Assembly (NCBI GenBank): GCA_013329455.1
Contig: DUKF01000124.1
Span: 4,420 to 14,522, forward strand
Source: Methanotrichaceae archaeon
GTDB lineage: Archaea > Halobacteriota > Methanosarcinia > Methanotrichales > Methanotrichaceae
Reading direction: 5' to 3'
DNA: 10,103 nt
Notes under the pieces: generated by a model
Database searches by the model: none
Seen by the model: the letters and a program-made list of their open reading frames with translations, nothing else
Told to the model about the DNA's origin: nothing
Part shown: positions 1 through 9,655 of the stretch, in pieces
How positions within the stretch are numbered: the stretch's first letter is position 1
Layout: each line of letters opens with the position of its first letter
Translations under genes and position numbers: made by a program

Positions 1-147
1 TACGAGAAGTACTACAACATAGACTTGAACGACTTTTCCGTCTACGACCTCGTCATAGATTCCAAGACTTGGAACGAGAAAGGAGCCGTCGCGATCGCCC
101 TGGCTGCAGTGAGGTCTCTTGAAGATGACGGGAATTCTACCCTCTGA
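1..147 (+). CDS. cmk: Cytidylate kinase, archaeal type (3' end only)
   Basis: Frame 1 is open from the left edge to a TGA at 145-147 and encodes the last 48 residues of a protein whose start lies outside the window. The tail, with IDLNDFSVYDLVIDS followed by a W and a final helix, matches the C-terminus of the small archaeal CMP kinases, which phosphorylate CMP/dCMP to the diphosphate in the cytoplasm. The identification leans on context: in many euryarchaea cmk lies directly upstream of cbf5 in the secY-adk-cmk-cbf5 ribosomal cluster, and cbf5 follows here with about 23 bases of overlap. The Walker A motif and the CMP-binding part are not visible, so activity cannot be judged. No oddities are seen in the visible part. 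Confidence 0.8.
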   Translation, partial: YEKYYNIDLNDFSVYDLVIDSKTWNEKGAVAIALAAVRSLEDDGNSTL

Positions 148-1123
148 TCGGGTCCGTGAGGTTCTCGTCCGAAGGGAGGGAAGAGCCGACCCCAACTACG
201 GCGTTCTGCCTCACCAACGGCCCCTCGACCTTCACCTCAGGCTCGGCTGTATAAACCTCGACAAGCCCCCCGGCCCCACCAGCCACGAGGTGGTGGCCTG
301 GGTGAAGAGGATCCTCGAGATCGAGAGAGCAGGCCACAGCGGCACCCTCGACCCCAAGGTGACGGGGATTCTTCCAACGATGCTTGGCGACTCCACCCGG
401 ATCGTAGAAACTCTTCTCAGAGCGGGAAAGGAGTACATCTGCCTTATGCGAGTTCACGCAACCCTTCCCAGAAAGAGTATCCTTGAGGCGTGCGCCGAGT
501 TCCAGGGCGATATCTACCAGCGTCCGCCCCTCAAGTCCAACGTCAAGAGGGCACTTCGGACAAGGGAGATCTACTACCTCGAGGTCCTCGAAATCGAGGG
601 TCCGAGCGTCCTGATGCGGGTCGGCTGCGAGGCAGGCACCTACATCCGCAAGCTATGTCACGACATCGGCCTCGCCCTGGGGACCGGAGCCCACATGGAG
701 GAGCTTCGAAGGACGAAGAGCGGTCCCTTTCGCGAAGACGAGACCCTTGTGACCCTTCACAACCTCAAGGACGCGAAAGAAATCTGGAAAGAGACCGGTG
801 ACGAAACCCTTCTGCGACAGGCGATCCAGCCGGTTGAGGCAGCTCTTCGGCATATGCCGTCTCTCGTCATCAGCGATGGCGCAGTCGACGCTATATGTCA
901 CGGAGCGCCCCTGGCAGCGCCGGGCCTTCTCACCCTCGAATCAGGTATAATTGAGGGCGAGAGGGTAGTTATTTATACCCTGAAAGGAGAAGCTGTTGCC
1001 GTGGCCGCTGCGGCTATGTCGAGCGAGGATATGATGAAGTCCTCCTCAGGGATAGTTGCCAAGACGTCGAGAGTCGTCATGGCTCCGGGAACCTATCCAA
1101 AGCTGTGGTCCAAAAAGTCGTGA
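125..1123 (+). CDS. cbf5: tRNA/rRNA pseudouridine synthase Cbf5 (H/ACA RNP catalytic subunit)
   Basis: Cbf5 is the catalytic subunit of archaeal H/ACA ribonucleoproteins (with Nop10, L7Ae and Gar1). It converts uridine to pseudouridine in rRNA and, in archaea, can also make pseudouridine 55 in tRNA. The 332-residue product has the TruB-family core: LDKPPGPTSHEVVAWVKRIL near residues 45-64, then HSGTLDPKVTGILP with the catalytic aspartate at about residue 76. A PUA domain follows from about residue 245 (LVISDGAVDAICHGAPL, then IVAKTSRVVMAPGTYPKLW). The size is normal for the family. I chose ATG 125 because GAGGT at 111-115 lies 9 bases upstream. A TTG two codons earlier (119) is only 3 bases from that site. 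The gene overlaps the end of cmk and is followed after 4 bases by a tRNA, so all three may share a transcript. Confidence 0.95.
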   Translation: MTGILPSDRVREVLVRREGRADPNYGVLPHQRPLDLHLRLGCINLDKPPGPTSHEVVAWVKRILEIERAGHSGTLDPKVTGILPTMLGDSTRIVETLLRAGKEYICLMRVHATLPRKSILEACAEFQGDIYQRPPLKSNVKRALRTREIYYLEVLEIEGPSVLMRVGCEAGTYIRKLCHDIGLALGTGAHMEELRRTKSGPFREDETLVTLHNLKDAKEIWKETGDETLLRQAIQPVEAALRHMPSLVISDGAVDAICHGAPLAAPGLLTLESGIIEGERVVIYTLKGEAVAVAAAAMSSEDMMKSSSGIVAKTSRVVMAPGTYPKLWSKKS

Positions 1124-1229: not shown

Positions 1230-1539
1230 CATAACTTCTCTTTAACAACTTCACCTTCACAACCACTTCGACGACTTTTGCGATTTTGGCCGATTTTTCA
1301 CTCTGTTGTCATCCAGGTGATTCATCTGCCCACAGTTCTCATCCCCAAACTCTCACCCTCGCCACCTTCCGGGACGACCTCCTGCCAAAGCTGATCTCAG
1401 GCGAGATCAGGGTGAAGGGCGCCGAAAAGCTCGCGGGGGGCAGGGGGCGGTTACCGGCACCCTGACGTGAAGGTCGGCGAGATGCAGTTGCAGTAGATGG
1501 AGTAACCCTAAAATACCATATGTGCTGAGGGTTTTCTAT
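1230..1539. other. Non-coding gap containing an HsdS relic
   Basis: No intact gene is seen between the tRNA and the NapH-like gene. The left part is T/C-rich and shows no features I can support. The middle holds the HsdS C-terminal relic annotated separately. The right end carries the ribosome binding site of the next gene (GAGGG 1527-1531) and an AT-rich patch (CTAAAATACC, 1508-1517) that could be part of its promoter, although its spacing to the start is short. Confidence 0.5.
1349..1465 (+). pseudogene. Relic of the C-terminus of a type I restriction specificity subunit (HsdS)
   Basis: Frame 2 reads [20 protein letters not shown] and continues RVKGAEK before a TGA at 1463-1465. The pattern [25 protein letters not shown] is the well-known last helix of HsdS, the DNA-recognition subunit of type I restriction-modification enzymes. 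The frame stays open leftwards without a start codon, without target-recognition domains and without hsdM or hsdR nearby, so only a scar of about 35-40 codons is left. The residues after AEK (a G-rich run and LPAP) do not look native. A second copy lies at 2335-2511 on the other side of the NapH-like gene. The call rests on motif memory; a profile search would settle it. Confidence 0.65.
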
Positions 1540-2277
1540 ATGAAAAGCTTCATAAAAAACAGGCAGAGGATCCGGAAGGCGTTGATTATTTTTTCATTCG
1601 TTCTATTGCCGGTCACCTTTGTTTATATATCCTGTCCGATAATAACCCAAGGTGCATCAGAAGGGATAATTACCGGCGGCCTGATAGTCTTCATCCTCAT
1701 CTTTATCAGTTCACTATTTTTGGGACGACTCTGGTGCGGGTGGCTCTGCCCCGCAGGAGGTCTGCAGGAAATTTATTTTCAGATTAATAATAAACAAGTT
1801 AATATTGGGAGGCTAAACTGGATCAAATATATCACCTTTCTTGCAATTTTTACATCCATCATTCTTGCAATTCGCTCTGCTGGAGGATTAACAACAATCG
1901 ATCTATTTTATTACACAGATCACGGAATCTCGATCGCAAAAGAGGGAGCATCTCCGAAATTCTATGGCCAAATCATTTTTATCACCATATTCGCTTTATC
2001 GGTCGGAAAACGTGGTTTCTGTCATTATTTCTGCCCGATCGCGGTGATCATGATCACCGGCAGGAAAATCCGAAATCTCATCCGTTGGCCGGCGCTTCAC
2101 CTGTCAGCTGATATGAACCTGTGTACAGACTGCAGGAAATGCTCAACAAACTGCCCGATGGGACTCGATGTGAACGATATGGTCCGGCGGGGGAATATGG
2201 AAAATACTGAGTGCATACTCTGTGGCGGCTGTGTGGATGCCTGCCCGAAACAAGCGATCCGCTATGCCATACATTGA
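1540..2277 (+). CDS. NapH/MauN-type membrane ferredoxin (4Fe-4S binding protein)
   Basis: This is a 245-residue polytopic membrane protein of the NapH/NosR/YccM type, which passes electrons between membrane carriers and a redox partner. Hydrophobic segments lie at about residues 13-32, 44-62, 95-112 and 142-158. Two family cysteine signatures end membrane segments: CGWLCP (C66, C70) and CHYFCP (C161, C165). A cytoplasmic tail carries two complete CxxCxxCxxxCP clusters (C195/198/201/205 and C225/228/231/235), consistent with two [4Fe-4S] centres. I chose ATG 1540 because GAGGG at 1527-1531 sits 8 bases upstream; a GTG at 1522 would add six residues and swallow that site. No redox partner gene is adjacent, so the substrate is unknown. 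The codons are AT-richer than in cbf5 or metG, and HsdS relics flank the gene, both of which suggest horizontal acquisition. Confidence 0.88.
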   Translation: MKSFIKNRQRIRKALIIFSFVLLPVTFVYISCPIITQGASEGIITGGLIVFILIFISSLFLGRLWCGWLCPAGGLQEIYFQINNKQVNIGRLNWIKYITFLAIFTSIILAIRSAGGLTTIDLFYYTDHGISIAKEGASPKFYGQIIFITIFALSVGKRGFCHYFCPIAVIMITGRKIRNLIRWPALHLSADMNLCTDCRKCSTNCPMGLDVNDMVRRGNMENTECILCGGCVDACPKQAIRYAIH

Positions 2278-2334: not shown

Positions 2335-2511
2335 ACACAGCAGAGCCAGTCCATCCAGGCCGCAGGCCTCCAAGGCACCCTCCTACCGAAGATGATATCG
2401 GGCGAGATCGAGGTGAGGGACGCCGAAAAATACGTGGAGGCGAGGGGCGTGAAGGTTTGCGGCCTCATCTCAATATCCGGCATTTGTAAATCACGAAATG
2501 GGGTTTTGTGA
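2335..2511 (+). pseudogene. Second HsdS C-terminal relic
   Basis: Immediately downstream of the NapH-like gene and in the same frame, the sequence reads QSQSIQAAGLQGTLLPKMIS and then GEIEVRDAEKYVEARG before drifting into repeat sequence and a TGA at 2509-2511. Aligned with the relic at 1349-1465, 13 of 17 residues are identical over the LLPK...AEK core, and the DNA is also recognisably similar. This is again the terminal conserved region of a type I specificity subunit, without start, without recognition domains and without partner subunits. Either the NapH-like gene entered an hsdS array or two hsdS genes decayed around it. The terminal codons overlap the palindrome cluster that starts at 2456. 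Confidence 0.62.
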
Positions 2512-2549
2512 TTCACAAACGAGTTTGTCGATATTCTATGAGCCGCAAA
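2456..2549. repeat. Long imperfect hairpin built on two palindromic 16-mers
   Basis: The outer arms TTTGCGGC (2456-2463) and GCCGCAAA (2542-2549) are perfect complements. Further inside, TCAT/ATGA (2465-2468 with 2538-2541) and AATATC/GATATT (2472-2477 with 2530-2535) also pair. In the centre, TTTGTAAATCACGAAA (2483-2498) and TTTTGTGATTCACAAA (2504-2519) are inverted copies of one 16-mer, differing by one mismatch and one wobble. The whole 94-base unit can fold into one stem with small internal loops. It lies in a gene-free area; it may be a MITE-like element, a terminator or a recombination site. I do not recognise the family. Confidence 0.7.
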
Positions 2550-2550
2550 T

Positions 2551-2593
2551 CCCTTTGTGAATCATGAAAGGCGGTTTCGTGATCCACAAACCC
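2551..2593. repeat. Second inverted pair of the same 16-mer
   Basis: TTTGTGAATCATGAAA (2554-2569) and TTTCGTGATCCACAAA (2575-2590) are inverted copies with two differences. They are flanked by CCC/GGG-type clamps and form a compact hairpin with a 5-base loop. Together with the preceding hairpin this makes four copies in alternating orientation. Each copy is itself a near-palindrome around TTTGTGA-TTCACAAA, so the cluster could alternatively be a set of operator sites for a dimeric DNA-binding protein. Confidence 0.65.
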
Positions 2594-2616: not shown

Positions 2617-2916
2617 AACAAAGGACTTTTCCGCAAAAGCTATTTTTATTGTGAACTGCTTGGAGCAAATGGAGAGCTGCATCTTACCCAAGCTGAAGCC
2701 GATGCCATGATAGACATGCCCAATTGCAAGACAGACGATGATGTGGTGATTATCCAGCTCCTGGAGACTCATTAGTATTATCTCCGACCACCTCCAGCGA
2801 CGACGATCTCCAAAAGACAGTCGAGGAGATTAAAACTTACTGATTTGGGTGGAACAAGTATCCGAAACCCGCATGAACCGCATCGGGGAGGTTTTGTTCT
2901 GCTGGAGAATAGATGA
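2617..2916 (+). pseudogene. Broken small gene, possibly DUF6978-like
   Basis: Frame 1 reads GELHLTQAEADAMIDMPNCK with an aspartate-rich continuation up to a TAG at 2773-2775. After a stretch without recognisable similarity, the same frame reads TDLGGTSIRNPHEPHRGG and stops at 2914-2916. From memory, both pieces resemble a small uncharacterised family (I believe DUF6978): its N-terminus has LTQEEADALIAM and its middle has LDLGGxxHRNPDG, in this order. No start codon is present in frame before the first piece, and the internal stop and the missing middle mark a decayed gene. Members of this family turn up near restriction and toxin-antitoxin genes, which fits the HsdS relics next door. The family call is tentative; that the region is non-functional as a protein gene is more certain. 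Confidence 0.4.
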
Positions 2917-2944: not shown

Positions 2945-5623
2945 ATGACCTTGCGAAAGAAGACCTTGGTCGTCACCGTCGTGATAATTCTCATCATGAT
3001 CATGATCATCAGCGCCTTTATGTGGCAATTGATGGTCGCTAACCTCTCAGAGCTGGAGGAGGAAGATGCCCGCCGAGAGGTCGAAGGGGTCCTCTTCGCC
3101 TTCCAGGAGGAGCTTTCCACCTTGAACAGGATCAGCGGTGATTGGGCACCCTGTAATGAAACGTACGATTTCGTAATGGACGGAAACGAGGAGTACGTCC
3201 AGGCGAACCTGGGCGAAGCAACCTTCACAAACCTCGGCGTCAATCTCATGCTCTTCTACAACACGTCGGGCGGGCTGGTTTACGGAAAAGCCTTCGACCT
3301 CGATTCCGGGAGGGAGGTCTCGGTTCCGCTGGATCTGGCAGATCTTCCCGAGAACGACTTCCTGATCAGTCACACCTCTCCAGAAGACGATGTGACTGGC
3401 ATAATCGCACTTCCTGAAGGTCTGATGATGGTGGTTTCTCGCCCCATCCTGGACAACCAATGGAATGGTCCCATCCGCGGAACGCTGATAGTAGGTCGTC
3501 TCCTGGACAATGCCCGAGTCGACGAGCTGGGCAAGCTGAGCGGCGGCGTCCTGAGGATAGAGCCTATAGACACGGCTCAGACGTCTATTGAATTGCGCAG
3601 CCTCGCCTCACCAGACTCTTTCGTTCTGATCGAGCCGATGGATGAAGACACTCTCCAGGCCCTCAAGACCATCGAGGACGTGTACGGAAACCCGTCTGTC
3701 CTTCTCGAAGCTCGCCTCCCGAGGAATATCCGCAAGCTCGGAATGGAGGTCGTCCGTTATCTGGAGCTTGCAGTCATACTGACCTGCCTGACCTTCGGGG
3801 GCGTCATTCTCATATTCCTGGAACATTTCGTACTCTCACCCCTGGCCATCATCAGCAGCTCAGTGGATGAGATCAGCAGGACAGAAGAGCCCGATAAGGT
3901 GCGCGTTCCCGGGGCTGGAAATGCCGAGCTCGCGAATCTGGCGGAAACTATCAACGAGATGCTGAACCGTTTGGGGACCTACAACCGAAAGCTCAGGGAC
4001 AGCGAAGAGAAGTTCAGGACCATCTTTGAGACCGCCCAGGACTGCATCTTCATCAAAGACAGAGAAAGCAGGTACGTTCAGGTCAATCCTGCAATGGAGA
4101 GGCTCTTTGAAATGCCCACTTCAGAGATCATGGGAAAGATGGACGAGGACCTCTTCGGATCCCGGGCAGCGGTTCAAACCCGTGGGGCCGACTCCCGGGT
4201 GCTGTCCGGCGACACTGTCGTCGACGAAGTGCGTGCTAATCCCGTCGGCGGGATTTCGGCCACTTTCCACGTGGTAAAGGTGCCCTTGAGAGACGAACTC
4301 GGCCAGGTCGTTGGGATCTGCGGAATCGCAAGAGACATCTCCGAGCGGAAACGAAACGAGATCGAACTTAAGAATAGGGATTTCCTCCTCGTGGCCTCGG
4401 CTGTTGCCTCCAACGCCCTCTTGGTCGAGGAAGATCTCGACCGCATCGTCGTCGATGCCCTCCAGTTCCTGGCCGAAACGGTCGGGGCCGACAGGGCCTA
4501 CATCTTCGAAAACCACAATGATACCGGCGAAGTTCTCATGAGCCATCTCTACGAATGGGCGGGTGAGGGGGTCGAGCCCCAGATAAGAAATCCTTCGCTT
4601 CAGAACCTACTTTATCATCCCGACTACGCCGGGCTTTATGAGACCATTTCCAGAGGCAAGCCGTACAAAGGTCTGGTCAAGGACTTTCCCGAATCGCAGA
4701 GGGCGATACTCGTACCCCAAGGGATAACCTCCATTCTGATCGTCCCCATAACCATACAAGACCAGCTCTGGGGCTTTGTGGGCTTCGACGACTGCCATTC
4801 CGAGAGGATCTGGAGTAAAAACGTGATATCAGTGCTCCAGGTAGCGGCAGGCAGCATCGGTGGGGCCGTAATCCGGAATCGAACGAAGAACGACCTGGTC
4901 CGGGCACGAGACGAGCTTGAGAGGAGGATCGAGGAAGTGGAGGCGAAGAACACCGAGATGGAACGGTTCGTCTACACCGTATCCCACGACCTCAGGTCCC
5001 CCCTGGTCACCGTCCAGGGCTTCGTCGGCTTCCTCAAAGAGGACGTCTCAGAAGGCGATCATGAGAAGGTTGAGACCGACCTATCGATGATCGAGGACGC
5101 CGTCGTCAAGATGGACCATCTTTTAAAAGACACTCTGAAGCTCTCCAGGATCGGGAGGGTGGCAAACCCACCGGAAGATGTCTCTTTCGGCGAGATCGCC
5201 CAGGAAGCCCTGGAACGCTTCTCCGAGGAGATCGGATCGAGGGGAATTGAGGTCTTACTCGCTGAGAACTGGCCTATCGTCCGGGCGGACCGGCTGAGGA
5301 TCCTCGAGGTTCTGACGAACCTGATTGAGAACAGCTCGAAGTACATGGGTGACATATTCAATCCCAAAATAGAGATCGGCTGGAGACAGAACGGCAGCGA
5401 GACCGCGTTCTTCGTCCGGGACAACGGGATCGGGATCGAGCCCGATCAGCAAGAGAAAGTCTTCGACCTGTTCTACAAGCTGGACCCCAGCATTGAGGGA
5501 AGCGGTGTTGGCCTTGCGATCGTAAAACGCATAATAGAGGTTCACAACGGTCGTATATGGATAGAGTCTGAAGAGGGCAAGGGCACGACAGTCTGCTTTT
5601 CGCTTCCCACAGCCGAGGCGTAA
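2945..5623 (+). CDS. Membrane sensor histidine kinase, CHASE4-HAMP-PAS-GAF (FilI-like)
   Basis: This 892-residue sensor kinase is expected to autophosphorylate and pass the phosphate to a response regulator. A first membrane helix spans about residues 7-32. An extracellular CHASE4-type domain follows, with its DWAxxxxTYxF signature at 66-76. A second membrane helix lies at about 272-293, then HAMP (294-345), PAS (353-470), GAF (about 488-650) and a short coiled linker. The HisKA H-box is SHDLRSPL with the phosphoacceptor H681. The ATPase domain has an N-box at 792-800, G1 DNGIGI at 826-831, an F-box near 838-846 and G2 GSGVGLAIVK at 852-861, so all catalytic boxes are intact. No receiver is fused, so a separate partner is needed; the convergent gene at 5677-7056 supplies one. 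Only ATG 2945 follows the upstream TGA (2930); GGTGG at 2936-2940 is a close, weak binding site. Membrane CHASE4/PAS kinases of this kind include FilI of Methanosaeta harundinacea; orthology is not proven. Confidence 0.93.
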   Translation: MTLRKKTLVVTVVIILIMIMIISAFMWQLMVANLSELEEEDARREVEGVLFAFQEELSTLNRISGDWAPCNETYDFVMDGNEEYVQANLGEATFTNLGVNLMLFYNTSGGLVYGKAFDLDSGREVSVPLDLADLPENDFLISHTSPEDDVTGIIALPEGLMMVVSRPILDNQWNGPIRGTLIVGRLLDNARVDELGKLSGGVLRIEPIDTAQTSIELRSLASPDSFVLIEPMDEDTLQALKTIEDVYGNPSVLLEARLPRNIRKLGMEVVRYLELAVILTCLTFGGVILIFLEHFVLSPLAIISSSVDEISRTEEPDKVRVPGAGNAELANLAETINEMLNRLGTYNRKLRDSEEKFRTIFETAQDCIFIKDRESRYVQVNPAMERLFEMPTSEIMGKMDEDLFGSRAAVQTRGADSRVLSGDTVVDEVRANPVGGISATFHVVKVPLRDELGQVVGICGIARDISERKRNEIELKNRDFLLVASAVASNALLVEEDLDRIVVDALQFLAETVGADRAYIFENHNDTGEVLMSHLYEWAGEGVEPQIRNPSLQNLLYHPDYAGLYETISRGKPYKGLVKDFPESQRAILVPQGITSILIVPITIQDQLWGFVGFDDCHSERIWSKNVISVLQVAAGSIGGAVIRNRTKNDLVRARDELERRIEEVEAKNTEMERFVYTVSHDLRSPLVTVQGFVGFLKEDVSEGDHEKVETDLSMIEDAVVKMDHLLKDTLKLSRIGRVANPPEDVSFGEIAQEALERFSEEIGSRGIEVLLAENWPIVRADRLRILEVLTNLIENSSKYMGDIFNPKIEIGWRQNGSETAFFVRDNGIGIEPDQQEKVFDLFYKLDPSIEGSGVGLAIVKRIIEVHNGRIWIESEEGKGTTVCFSLPTAEA

Positions 5624-5676
5624 GCGTCCAAGAGCCGAAGGGCGACAAAAGTCTTTGGTGGGTCGAATTATTATTA
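5624..5676. other. Convergent intergenic spacer with TAA repeats
   Basis: Only 53 bases separate the stop codons of the two converging genes. On the minus strand the regulator ends in four tandem TAA codons (5668-5679), which gives a T/A-rich run in both directions. CTTTT on the minus strand (5646-5654 region) and the AT repeat may serve as a bidirectional hairpin-free terminator. No strong stem-loop is visible. Confidence 0.4.
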
Positions 5677-7056
5677 TTATTTAGCGCCTTTTTCTGATCG
5701 GATTTCGCCTTCGCCAAGTTTTGTGGAACCCTGCATATCGTCCTTCTTAAGCTTTTGTCCTTTATACTCTCGCCACTTGAAAATAGATCGTTTTGCGATC
5801 TCCGGAAGCTTATGCATGCTCTCCGCGTCCTTTACCACATAATCCATGGCACCAGACTTGAAGGCTTGAACTGCGATCTTCTCCGAGCCAAACCCGGTGA
5901 GTATTATCAGAGGAAAACCCACTTCCAGTGGACTCTCCGCATTCCCTGCCAGATCCAAGCCGCGGCCGTCCGGAAGAAGATAGTCTGCAATGATCAGAAA
6001 CGATCTGTCTTTATTGTCCTCGACCCACCTCAACGCATCCCGAAGATTCATAACGTGATTGATATCCAATTTTGAATTGCTTTCGTAGAACAACCGGCGA
6101 ATAAAAGCAGCATGGGCCACATTATCCTCGACGAGCATGATGGTATCGACCTCTGCAGGGCTTGATTCTTGTCCTTTGTACGGGACCACAGCTGTCTCAT
6201 CGAAGTACGAAAGTTTTTGCGATAACGACACTGCCATCAGCTCCTGCTCATCGACATCCGAAGAGTTCGCAGAATAATATTCGAATAGCTGCATACCCCA
6301 AGTAACCGCACATTCTCCGATGTAAATCGTTCCGCATCCGACATCATAGACCCCGTCATGCCTCCAGAGCCCCAGGTAAACAAAAGATTCGGTGACTATT
6401 AGAGCGAACTTTATATCGTCGGTGGATAGATGTAACTTGAAATTCTCGAATTTGAGCGACTTCTTAAATTCAGGTGCTAGCATGCCGTCTTCGTTGAGAA
6501 GAGTTCCTGCAACTTTATCCGTTATTAACAGATCTACATGGCTTCCTTTTCTGAGGGCGTTTATAAATATGTCTGACTCTTTGGGAAATATCAAGACTGG
6601 TAAAATTGCGTGAATTTTCTTTGACTTGGACAGCATCGATACCAGGCTCTCATGGCACTTCAACGGCGTGGAGGGATCTGAGCATATAATCTCCGACTGA
6701 AAAAGCATGCTCAACCTGTCCAATATGTCTGGAGGTATGCTGCTTATGTCATGGTTCAGCCAAAAATCGGGGTTCGTCTCCAGATTCTCAAAGACACTTA
6801 TAACATTGTCTAAAACGCTCGTTTTTATTTTGCCAAGATTGGTCAGCTTATAACCATATCGATCTTTGGTGATTAGATCAGAATCACTCATATCCTTGAT
6901 CGCGTGCAGAATGGTGGTGTTTCTGCCGCCCAATTCTTTCTGCAAATCATTTATATCTTTTTCATCGTTTTTTAAACAAAGTAAAATATTCATTCTTAAC
7001 TCTGAACTTGCGAACGCTTTGACTTGCTTTACCAGATCTCTTTCGTCCATGTCCAT
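5677..7056 (-). CDS. FilR1-like response regulator: winged helix - DUF1724 middle domain - C-terminal receiver
   Basis: This 459-residue protein is probably the DNA-binding partner of the kinase encoded opposite. Residues 10-85 form an ArsR/TrmB-like winged helix (SSELRMNILLCLKNDEKDIN at the start, a wing near DRYGYKLTNLG). Residues about 110-265 match the methanogen domain called DUF1724 or FilR1 middle domain (ILPVLIFPKE, VDLLITDKVAGTLL, LIVTESFVYLGLW). Residues 303-425 are a complete receiver: acidic pair E310/D311, phosphoacceptor D358 (IIADYLLPDG), T387 and K409. The receiver at the C-terminus reverses the usual bacterial order. The start is ATG 7054-7056, with a second ATG two codons inside; no good ribosome binding site precedes either. 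Base composition is more AT-rich than in the kinase or metG. The final 30 residues are charged and look disordered. Its promoter region carries an inverted repeat over the TATA box. Confidence 0.9.
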   Translation of the reverse strand: MDMDERDLVKQVKAFASSELRMNILLCLKNDEKDINDLQKELGGRNTTILHAIKDMSDSDLITKDRYGYKLTNLGKIKTSVLDNVISVFENLETNPDFWLNHDISSIPPDILDRLSMLFQSEIICSDPSTPLKCHESLVSMLSKSKKIHAILPVLIFPKESDIFINALRKGSHVDLLITDKVAGTLLNEDGMLAPEFKKSLKFENFKLHLSTDDIKFALIVTESFVYLGLWRHDGVYDVGCGTIYIGECAVTWGMQLFEYYSANSSDVDEQELMAVSLSQKLSYFDETAVVPYKGQESSPAEVDTIMLVEDNVAHAAFIRRLFYESNSKLDINHVMNLRDALRWVEDNKDRSFLIIADYLLPDGRGLDLAGNAESPLEVGFPLIILTGFGSEKIAVQAFKSGAMDYVVKDAESMHKLPEIAKRSIFKWREYKGQKLKKDDMQGSTKLGEGEIRSEKGAK

Positions 7057-7164: not shown

Positions 7165-7561
7165 AATGAACGGTTTCGCGGATCCTCCATTGCAACTGGC
7201 GGATCTTATGCATTTTGGCATTTAAGTAATTTGCTCTGACTTGCCAATTGTTCGGAAATCTTGTTCTCTTATCCAGTGCTCAATTCGGTTTCTCGATGAA
7301 GTTGCAGTTTACAGGACAGGCGGTTTCTCGCCTCGACCAAAGGACCAAAGCACCCCGCCTTCTTGACCAAAGCCGCAGCCCTAGCTGAACCTCGACTCGC
7401 AGCCCAATGTGCTGAGCGCGTCGGCCGCAGCACCGGGCCCGATCACATTCGCATCCGAACGCCTCGCGAGAAAGGATCCCTCCGGGCCCCGGCAGATTTA
7501 GGAGGAAACAGAGGGCATCTTTGGACCGCTGTCCTCATCCGCAGACTGACGTGCTCGATAG
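7165..7561. other. Long non-coding gap upstream of metG
   Basis: About 400 bases have no gene I can support. A frame on the plus strand is open from 7363 to 7611, but it has only a TTG start, no binding site, runs across the metG promoter and resembles nothing I know. The left part contains a possible transposase scar on the minus strand (about 7240-7303). A short hairpin GGCG-GTTTCT-CGCC lies near 7319-7332. The sequence changes from AT-rich on the left to GC-rich on the right. Confidence 0.5.
7240..7303 (-). pseudogene. Possible transposase C-terminal scar
   Basis: The minus strand reads NFIEKPN, a TGA, then ALDKRT. DDE transposases and integrases commonly end with a motif like NFxRPHxALxxKTP, so this could be the last piece of an insertion sequence with a stop at the variable position. 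The match is short, no terminal repeats or catalytic residues are present, and chance similarity is possible. Confidence 0.15.
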
Positions 7562-7581
7562 CATCTCTTTTTTTTGAGATG
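7562..7581. promoter_or_regulatory. CATCTC-T8-GAGATG inverted repeat upstream of metG
   Basis: A perfect 6-bp inverted repeat encloses a run of eight T residues and ends 7 bases before the presumed metG TATA box. As DNA it resembles an operator next to the core promoter; as RNA on the opposite strand it would be a small hairpin with an A8 loop. It is too short to be sure of a role. Confidence 0.35.
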
Positions 7582-7583
7582 GG

Positions 7584-7594
7584 AAACGTATATC
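7584..7594 (+). promoter_or_regulatory. BRE/TATA candidate for metG
   Basis: AAACGTATATC combines a purine-rich BRE-like stretch with a TATA-like core at 7589-7594. A start site about 25 bases later would fall near 7615-7619, just in front of the AAGGTG ribosome binding site, giving a very short leader. It is the best-placed candidate. Confidence 0.4.
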
Positions 7595-7617
7595 TGGAAG
7601 TTTGGGCATAGCCTCAC

Positions 7618-7623
7618 AAGGTG
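7618..7623 (+). promoter_or_regulatory. metG: Ribosome binding site deciding the metG start
   Basis: AAGGTG lies 7 bases before TTG 7631. It selects this start over the TTG at 7574, which would add 19 residues (with [15 protein letters not shown]) not expected in front of the [10 protein letters not shown] core and would read through the promoter. Confidence 0.65.
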
Positions 7624-7630
7624 TTCTTAT

Positions 7631-9655
7631 TTGCCTTCATCCGAACTTCCCACACTCATAACTTGCGGACTGCCCTACGCCAACGGCCCCTGTCACATCG
7701 GGCACCTGAGGACCTACGTGCCCGCCGACATCTACGTTAGGGGGCTCAAGAAGATGGGAAAAGACCCCATCTTCATCTGCGGATCCGACTCCCACGGGAC
7801 CCCCATCGTCGTCAATGCCGAGGAGAGGGGGACGACCCCCACGGAGCTTGTGACGAAGTATCACGACCATTTCGACGACGTCTTCAAGCGCATGGAGGTG
7901 GAGTTCGATTATTTCGGAAACACCGACGACCCCTCCAACCACAGCCGGACCCAGTCGATTGTCGAATCCCTGATGAACGAGGGGTACGTCTACCCCCAGG
8001 AGATCCAGCTCGCATACTGTCCCTCCTGCGACCGCTTCCTTCCCGATAGATACGTCGAGGGAACCTGCCCCTACTGCAAGTCCCCTGCTAGAGGCGACGA
8101 GTGCGACCAGGGATGCGGCCGCCACCTCGAGCCCGGCGAGATCACCGAGCCCCTCTGCAAGATCTGCGGAGGCGAGGCGGAGTACCGAACCCAGAAACAT
8201 TACTTCTTCAGGCTCTCGGCCTTCAGCGATTTTCTCATCGACTATCTAGAAGGGCTGGGGGGCACCTCGAACGCCAGAAACTACGCCCTCGAGTGGGTCA
8301 AGCAGGAGCTGAAAGACTGGTGCATCACCCGAAACCTCGAATGGGGCGTCAAGTTCCCCGGCCAGGAGAAGCTTGTCGTCTACGTCTGGGTCGACGCGCC
8401 CATCGGCTACATATCCTTCACAGAGGAGTGGGCGAAGCGATCCGGAGGCGACTGGGAGAGCTACTGGAAAAATCCCTCGAGGATCGTCCACTTCATCGGA
8501 GGCGACATCGTATACCACCACTGTATATTCTGGCCTGCGATGTTGAAAGGGGCGAGCTACACTCTCCCGAGCGCCGTCGTCGCGAGCGGGATGCTCAAGA
8601 TCGATAACAAGACCTTCTCCAAGAGCAGGGGTTACGTCGTCTGGGTAATCGATGACTACCTCGAAAAGGGGCTTCACCCCGATCTTCTGCGGTACTACCT
8701 CGCCTCCTACACATCCCACACCAAGGAGCTGAACTTCTCCTGGACGATCTTCGGGGAAAAGGTGAACGGCGAGCTGGTGGGGGCTCTGGGCAACTTCGTC
8801 AACAGGGCCGTCACCTTCACCTCCAAGAACTTTGATCGGTCCGTCCCCGAGGGTGACCTCGATCCAAAGGTCACTTCCAAGATCGAGGCGACCCTCGCTG
8901 AGGTGAAGGCGGCCCTCGAGGATTACGAGTTCAAGAAGCTGGTCGACGGCGCTATGTCTCTGGCGGACTATGGGAACACATACTTCCAGGCGAACGAGCC
9001 CTGGAAGCTCGCCAAGACCGATCGGGCCAAGTGCGGCGCCGTCTTGAGAAACTGTCTCCAGATCGCGAAGGCCCTGGCGATCATGCTCCAGCCGGTGATG
9101 CCGGCCGCAATGGAGTCAGCCTGGAAGCAGCTGGGCCTCGAGGGGACCGCGGCTGACGCCCTCTTCGACGATGCCCTCGTTCCCATAGAGGCGGGAAGAA
9201 GGCTAGGAGTTCCAGAGCACATCTTCAAGAAGATGGACGACTCAATGGTATCGGAACTGGACGAAGTATTCAGGGAGAGGATAGCGAGCCTTGAAGCGAA
9301 AGAGGGAAAGAAGAAGGGTGAAGAGAAGATGAGCACCATAAAGTTTGAAGATTTCAAGAACCTCGACATCAGAATCGGAGAGGTGTTGGCGGCAGAGAGG
9401 ATCAAAGGCTCAGACAAGCTCCTCCGCCTGATGGTCGATATAGGGTCCGAGGAGAGGCAGATAGTAGCAGGGATCGCCCAGACCCACAGTCCCGAGGATC
9501 TGGTTGGACGAAATATTGTCGTCCTCGCCAACCTGGAGCCTGCCAAGCTCTTCGGCGTCGAGTCCCAGGGGATGCTTCTTGCCGCCGACCTGGGAGACTC
9601 CGCGGTCCTGCTCACCCCGGAGAAGGCGGCACCCCCGGGGTCCAAGATCCGCTGA
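7631..9655 (+). CDS. metG: Methionyl-tRNA synthetase with fused C-terminal tRNA-binding domain
   Basis: This class I synthetase charges tRNA-Met (initiator and elongator) with methionine in the cytoplasm. From TTG 7631 it has 674 residues. The Rossmann core starts at about residue 9 ([10 protein letters not shown]) with HIGH at 22-25. The connective insertion has two zinc knuckles: C130/C133 with C146/C149, and C158/C162 with C176/C179. The KMSKS loop is KTFSKS at 327-332. An anticodon-binding helical domain covers about 380-540. After a lysine/glutamate linker (555-566), an OB-fold tRNA-binding domain of EMAP II/Arc1p type fills 567-674 ([11 protein letters not shown], then [11 protein letters not shown]). 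In several other archaea this domain is a separate MetRS-beta protein. A strong Shine-Dalgarno sequence precedes M567. Codon use is GC-rich, as in cbf5. A stem-loop follows the stop. Confidence 0.96.
9316..9331 (+). promoter_or_regulatory. Internal Shine-Dalgarno and ATG in metG
   Basis: GGGTGA (9316-9321) lies exactly 7 bases before ATG 9329, in frame with metG. It is at the junction between the charged linker and the tRNA-binding domain. Initiation here would yield a free 108-residue domain (9329-9655) equal to the stand-alone MetRS-beta of other archaea. That the domain starts with [11 protein letters not shown], as a stand-alone protein would, supports a former or present start. Confidence 0.4.

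Follow-up and report, generated by a model that had tools for sequence, protein, structure and literature searches.

A filI/filR1 two-component locus in a Methanotrichaceae archaeon, orthologous to that of Methanosaeta harundinacea and retaining only a remnant of filR2

The FilI/FilR system of Methanosaeta (Methanothrix) harundinacea 6Ac is among the few archaeal two-component systems that have been studied at the bench (PMC11784639), and its kinase gene is described as the only archaeal gene for which a link to a quorum-sensing pathway has empirical backing (PMC12240190); further related literature is found in PMC5847659, PMC6944256 and PMC4823666. In the portions of the 6Ac study that concern this locus (PMC3991700), the histidine kinase FilI (886 amino acids, aa) autophosphorylates and transfers its phosphoryl group to two regulators: FilR1, which ends at residue 446 according to the legend of Figure 1, and FilR2, a stand-alone receiver whose gene is separated from filI by a 37-bp gap and is co-transcribed with it. 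FilR1 was reported there to bind its own promoter and the filI-filR2, acs1, acs4 and mtr promoters, and to activate in a reporter system. Here we analyse a stretch of 10,103 nucleotides (“the window”) from a Methanotrichaceae archaeon (GCA_013329455.1, DUKF01000124.1, positions 4,420-14,522, forward strand), in which a sensor kinase gene and a regulator gene converge, as originally predicted, with 53 bp between their stop codons, and we compare it with the corresponding stretches of the nine genomes of the genus (G000 to G008, of which G000 is the window’s own). One of these, G001, was taken as 6Ac, as its filI (886 aa), its filR1 (446 aa) and its filI-filR2 gap (37 bp) fit the published values. 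The locus very probably encodes a two-component system that switches methanogenesis promoters in a Methanothrix-type methanogen, the orthologue of FilI/FilR1 in M. harundinacea; the gene pair is a further member of the known system, in a trimmed form brought about by lineage-specific loss of filR2.

The window kinase shares the architecture of the FilI family. Pfam assigns to it CHASE4 (E-value 1.2e-36), HAMP, PAS, GAF, HisKA and HATPase_c in the order typical of FilI, and 6Ac FilI has the same six domains; CHASE4 is flanked by two hydrophobic stretches (residues about 1-35 and 269-307), matching the two membrane segments of the family, and a third, weak stretch (residues 586-605) lies within GAF. 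H681, the phospho-acceptor, is intact, as are boxes N, G1, F and G2, and the key letters (SHDL; the two N of the N-box; DNGIG; the two F of the F-box; G852, G854 and G856) are invariant in 27 of 27 aligned FilI rows, across which the other box positions vary. These rows comprise the window, 24 or 25 database clusters, G001 and G003, and some of them duplicate another row’s protein (P0015 equals G003 in the kinase core). Over 889 residues the kinase is 60% identical to G001 FilI, and in a midpoint-rooted tree of 46 kinase cores (44 of them different, with four long branches flagged by the program) all 27 FilI rows, the window and 6Ac kinases among them, form one clade with 100/100 support. The original prediction had read the protein as a CHASE4-HAMP-PAS-GAF kinase of the FilI family with intact boxes and without a receiver of its own; Pfam found no receiver domain in it, and the tree check that had been proposed places it inside the FilI clade and not far from it. 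The prediction went astray in regarding the GAF domain as a departure from FilI, as M. harundinacea FilI carries GAF too.

Conservation is uneven along the kinase. Mean pairwise identity across the 27 rows is 58% for CHASE4, 66% for PAS, 74% for GAF, 81% for DHp and 73% for CA, and between the window and 6Ac CHASE4 is again less conserved (49% identity, versus 75% for DHp). Because outer sensor domains commonly diverge faster, these figures give no more than a hint that signals are changing or that domains have been exchanged. The CHASE4 domain of IsmP of Pseudomonas aeruginosa (PDB 8wct, 8z6n) is 13% identical and falls outside Foldseek’s 50 best matches.

The regulator is a single protein that carries a winged helix and FilR1_middle and has a receiver at its C terminus; it is 59% identical to G001 FilR1 over 448 residues. 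FilR1_middle (PF08350, E-value 1.1e-20; called DUF1724 in the original prediction) and Response_reg (5.6e-12) lie above the Pfam cut-offs, and the winged-helix model HVO_A0261_N reaches 32.6 bits, just under its 35-bit cut-off; this model is below cut-off in 6Ac FilR1 as well. The predicted intactness of D358, T387 and K409 holds, all three being invariant in 27 of 27 FilR1 rows (the window, 24 or 25 database clusters and G001). A protein search, with candidates limited to 0.55-1.75 times the query length, yielded 90 clusters, which divide into 26 with FilR1_middle and a receiver, 18 with FilR1_middle and no receiver, and 46 with a receiver and no FilR1_middle. All three domains are present in 24 of the 26 FilR1 clusters, and two shorter ones (P0145, P0146) have only FilR1_middle and the receiver. 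One-component regulators resemble FilR1 in their winged helix and PF08350, and differ from it in having no receiver in the 18 clusters listed. The window’s own genome encodes one such relative (G000:C249:4789-5574), with 42% identity across winged helix plus middle domain and no receiver, and genes of this type occur in at least 24 of 37 genomes of the family, among the matches listed. On the predicted FilR1 model, Foldseek suggests a phospholipase-D-like fold for the middle domain; this assignment rests on Foldseek, as the VIA-align rows shown are matches to the receiver. The best Foldseek matches to that model (E-value 3e-9) are to the archaeal regulator TrmBL2 (PDB 5bpd, 5box, 5bqt), with low TM-scores and a large root-mean-square deviation over the whole model. 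TrmBL2 has a winged helix and a phospholipase-D-like domain and, unlike FilR1, is not known to carry a receiver.

The arrangement of the two genes is conserved in the genus. They are convergent, with metG beyond filR1, in seven of the nine genomes (G000, G001, G002, G003, G005, G006 and G008; loci L013 and L014 were taken as those of G002 and G006 and counted once), and six of these seven loci have a NapH-like gene upstream, the exception being the fetched G005 contig, in which it was not found. We take this NapH-like gene to be the “ferredoxin gene” that adjoins filR2 in M. harundinacea. The 6Ac locus is like the window in its convergent order and in both neighbours. The published text calls filR1 “divergently transcribed” (PMC3991700), contrary to the G001 coordinates, in which filI and filR1 converge as they do in the window. 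In G005 filR1 is broken into two open reading frames (ORFs), with a stretch of 33 N inside it.

Convergence, the GAF domain and a difference in base composition had been read as hints that the window holds a diverged FilI/FilR1 paralogue, or a pair recently assembled from parts of different origin. The compositions do differ: the G+C content at third codon positions (GC3) is 0.712 in filI and 0.504 in filR1, and the window filR1 is lower in G+C than that of 6Ac (GC3 in G001: filI 0.86, filR1 0.81). Some domain exchange is also possible, given that CHASE4 and DHp identities among the FilI rows are only moderately correlated (r = 0.51). However, the same convergent order stands beside metG in the six other genomes, and the M. 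harundinacea locus shares the convergence, the GAF domain and the neighbours; the FilI-like paralogues of G002, G003 and G006 fall into another, separate supported clade of the 46-core tree; and no second full-length FilI or FilR1 was found in the window’s own genome, which is 81.5% complete. The low filR1 GC3 is common to the sister genome G002 (filI 0.71, filR1 0.513), and the contrast between the two genes therefore does not point to an assembly that is recent and confined to this genome. Synteny, tree and shared composition thus contradict a paralogous or newly assembled pair, which is largely refuted and which we hold to be highly improbable. An older replacement, in the common ancestor of the window lineage and G002, may have taken place. 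The genus also has a second FilI-like kinase family (L082 in G006, L083 in G002 and L084 in G003), with frames of 889-915 aa whose kinase cores share 64-65% identity with that of the window.

Co-occurrence ties the two proteins together. Within the genus FilI and FilR1 are either both present (seven genomes) or both absent (two), and FilR1 is always beside FilI in those seven; together with identity, domain content and receiver residues, this bears out the earlier view of the regulator as a FilR1 family member paired with the kinase. Outside the genus, among 14 listed loci with a FilR1-type receiver (E-value < 1e-20), six have a FilI-type kinase core within 1 kb (G018, G020, G026, G028, G032 and G034), two have one at 5-6 kb (G013 and another locus of G032), and six have no listed FilI-type kinase near. 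In one locus of another genus (L091, G020:C65) a FilI-type kinase and a FilR1-type receiver protein are convergent and about 0.9 kb apart. In all seven extra-genus proteins with FilR1-type receivers that were examined the receiver is the first domain, and FilR1_middle is absent from each; FilR1 probably arose when a receiver of this kind became fused to a protein with a winged helix and FilR1_middle.

The regulator had also been thought the only one nearby, which holds for the present state of the locus and not for its past: an adjoining receiver gene, filR2, once stood beside filI and is now a remnant. Where 6Ac has an operon-encoded stand-alone FilR2, the window has about 100 bp that align with the 3' end of filR2 at 61.7 bits, versus a maximum of 26.5 bits for 200 dinucleotide-shuffled sequences; this remnant lacks 63 bp immediately upstream of position 2801, contains an in-frame stop and ends in a TGA at the gene’s own stop place. 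Full ORFs for filR2 are present in G001, G003, G006 and G008, and in G005 with 10 Ns; in the sister genome G002 the gene is split by a frameshift that could be an assembly error, an explanation less likely for the deletion and stop of the window. Relocation of filR2 within the genome was considered and rejected. The only other stand-alone candidate (C220:650-1012) is 37% identical to FilR2, and receivers of its type (33-40% identical to FilR2) occur in all nine genus genomes, whether or not these have a true filR2; the assembly is incomplete, as noted above, but the remnant lies inside the contig at the gene’s original place. In helix alpha-1 of the receiver, FilR1 is 38-44% identical to four FilR2 sequences, versus 22-27% overall, and 25% identical to the C220 receiver, versus 27% overall; this likeness of FilR1 and FilR2 is suggestive only, as a possible sign of a common kinase. 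We found no earlier report of filR2 decay, or of absence of the module in the genus, among the open-licence papers searched.

Loss has gone further in two genomes: filR2, filI and filR1 are all missing from the corresponding stretch of G004 and G007. In both, the NapH-like gene breaks off near residue 144 and metG comes next (L102 6910-7338, L103 13058-13468); a single shared deletion is the likely cause of the module's absence. In the fetched stretches truB was found for G004 and not for G007.

Compared with G002, the ratio of nonsynonymous to synonymous substitution rates (dN/dS) is 0.27 for filI, 0.20 for filR1, 0.17 for the NapH-like gene and 0.09 for both metG and truB; filI and filR1 are under purifying selection that is less strict than that on the housekeeping genes. 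One could read these values as relaxed constraint on a pair that is decaying in the wake of filR2 and heading for the loss seen in G004 and G007, and the filR2 remnant, the G002 frameshift, the module-less genomes, and a G008 filI split across two overlapping frames would fit such a course. Both window ORFs, however, are full length with their catalytic residues, and their ratios (0.20-0.27) are still well under 1, and we consider decay of the pair unlikely.

A different reading would make the locus a quorum-sensing system, whose kinase makes or senses carboxyl-acyl-homoserine lactones (carboxyl-AHLs). The 6Ac study states that FilI is 39.6% identical to AhlI, and describes very weak effects of added carboxyl-AHLs on FilI in vitro (PMC3991700). 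No autoinducer-synthase (LuxI-type) family was found in Pfam at E-values up to 10 for either the window or the 6Ac kinase, although most matches above about 0.1 are discarded by the HMMER filters. For want of such a match in this comparison with Pfam families, the idea that the 6Ac kinase is a LuxI homologue was rejected. We think it quite unlikely that this locus makes or senses lactones.

The pair most likely works, instead, as a histidine-to-aspartate phosphotransfer switch on methanogenesis promoters, its phosphotransfer and promoter targets being what we infer from experiments on the orthologues. An extracellular signal at CHASE4, together with PAS and GAF inputs, would set autophosphorylation of H681; the phosphoryl group would pass to D358 of FilR1; and phospho-FilR1 would bind through its winged helix and activate its own promoter and those of filI, acetyl-CoA synthetase and other methanogenesis genes. 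The same phosphate flow is expected as in 6Ac because architecture, residues and locus are equal. FilR1 would be the only local receiver in this flow and, because filR2 is gone, presumably the sole local output. Several points weigh against the pair as such a switch. The module is dispensable in the genus, being missing from G004 and G007; outside the genus, eight of the 14 listed FilR1-type receiver loci have no listed FilI-type kinase within 1 kb; dN/dS for filI and filR1 exceeds the value of about 0.09 for metG and truB two- to threefold, for which reason constraint on them may be weakening; and the window’s own genome is a fragmented, incomplete assembly. Coordinates of all features are collected in Table 1; the TATA-like element listed there may be part of the filR1 promoter.

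Table 1. Positions in the window of the fil genes, their neighbours and candidate regulatory elements.
Feature	Position	Strand	Remarks
truB/Cbf5-type pseudouridine synthase	119..1123	+	Upstream neighbour; also in the fetched stretches of G001, G002, G003 and G004
NapH/MauN-like membrane ferredoxin gene	1522..2277	+	Upstream neighbour in 6/7 loci
Two 37-nt palindromes upstream of filI, also pairing with each other (45-nt arms)	2483..2590		Operator or hairpin candidate
filR2 remnant, 3' end	2774..2876	+	63-bp internal deletion, internal in-frame stop; best-supported piece 2801-2876
filI orthologue, CHASE4-HAMP-PAS-GAF-HisKA-HATPase histidine kinase	2945..5623	+	892 aa; phospho-acceptor H681
filR1 orthologue: winged helix, FilR1_middle, C-terminal receiver (D358, T387, K409)	5677..7056	-	459 aa
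TATA-like element upstream of filR1	7217..7234	-	Conserved in the filR1-metG intergenic alignment
metG, methionyl-tRNA synthetase	7574..9655	+	Divergent from filR1; neighbour beyond filR1 in 7/7 loci

The palindromes upstream of filI distinguish the window from 6Ac, G001 having no match at that place. Their 45-nt arms are 76% complementary and, folded as RNA, give z = -4.6. Four of the genome’s six matches to a 16-nt half-site lie here, the other two having two mismatches; G002 has one perfect half-site at the same place, and no match was found at that place in G003, G006 or G008 either. Outside the locus and its G002 counterpart, the nine genus genomes contain 10 near-matches (one or two mismatches), and because a reversed control pattern gives one, their number may exceed chance. 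As an operator for FilR1 the palindromes are not established: six of the 10 near-matches are inside a called ORF, no acs, mtr or fwd gene stands among their printed neighbours (judged by eye, without a family scan), and there is no half-site near filR1 in the window.

Two further observations concern the upstream part of the window. A tRNA-Ser(GGA) gene with a 12-base intron (1128-1223; ARAGORN with introns allowed, Rfam 51.3 bits) is missed by a default tRNA scan. After the NapH-like gene comes an open stretch (2278-2508) whose translation has no Pfam match at E-values up to 1 and may resemble the terminal part of a specificity subunit of a type I restriction system.

For the genus, the loss of filR2 admits a tentative and rather doubtful extension, namely that the window lineage is a natural filR2 knock-out in which a two-protein FilI/FilR1 switch has been kept under selection, with CHASE4 diverging fastest and each species perhaps reading its own extracellular signal; FilR2 would then perhaps be a phosphate sink or a branch output. 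Genomes that lack filR2 while keeping an intact, selected FilI/FilR1 pair, set beside those that lack the module, offer a comparison by which the role of FilR2 could be tested, and by which the need for the system in acetate methanogenesis would likewise become testable.

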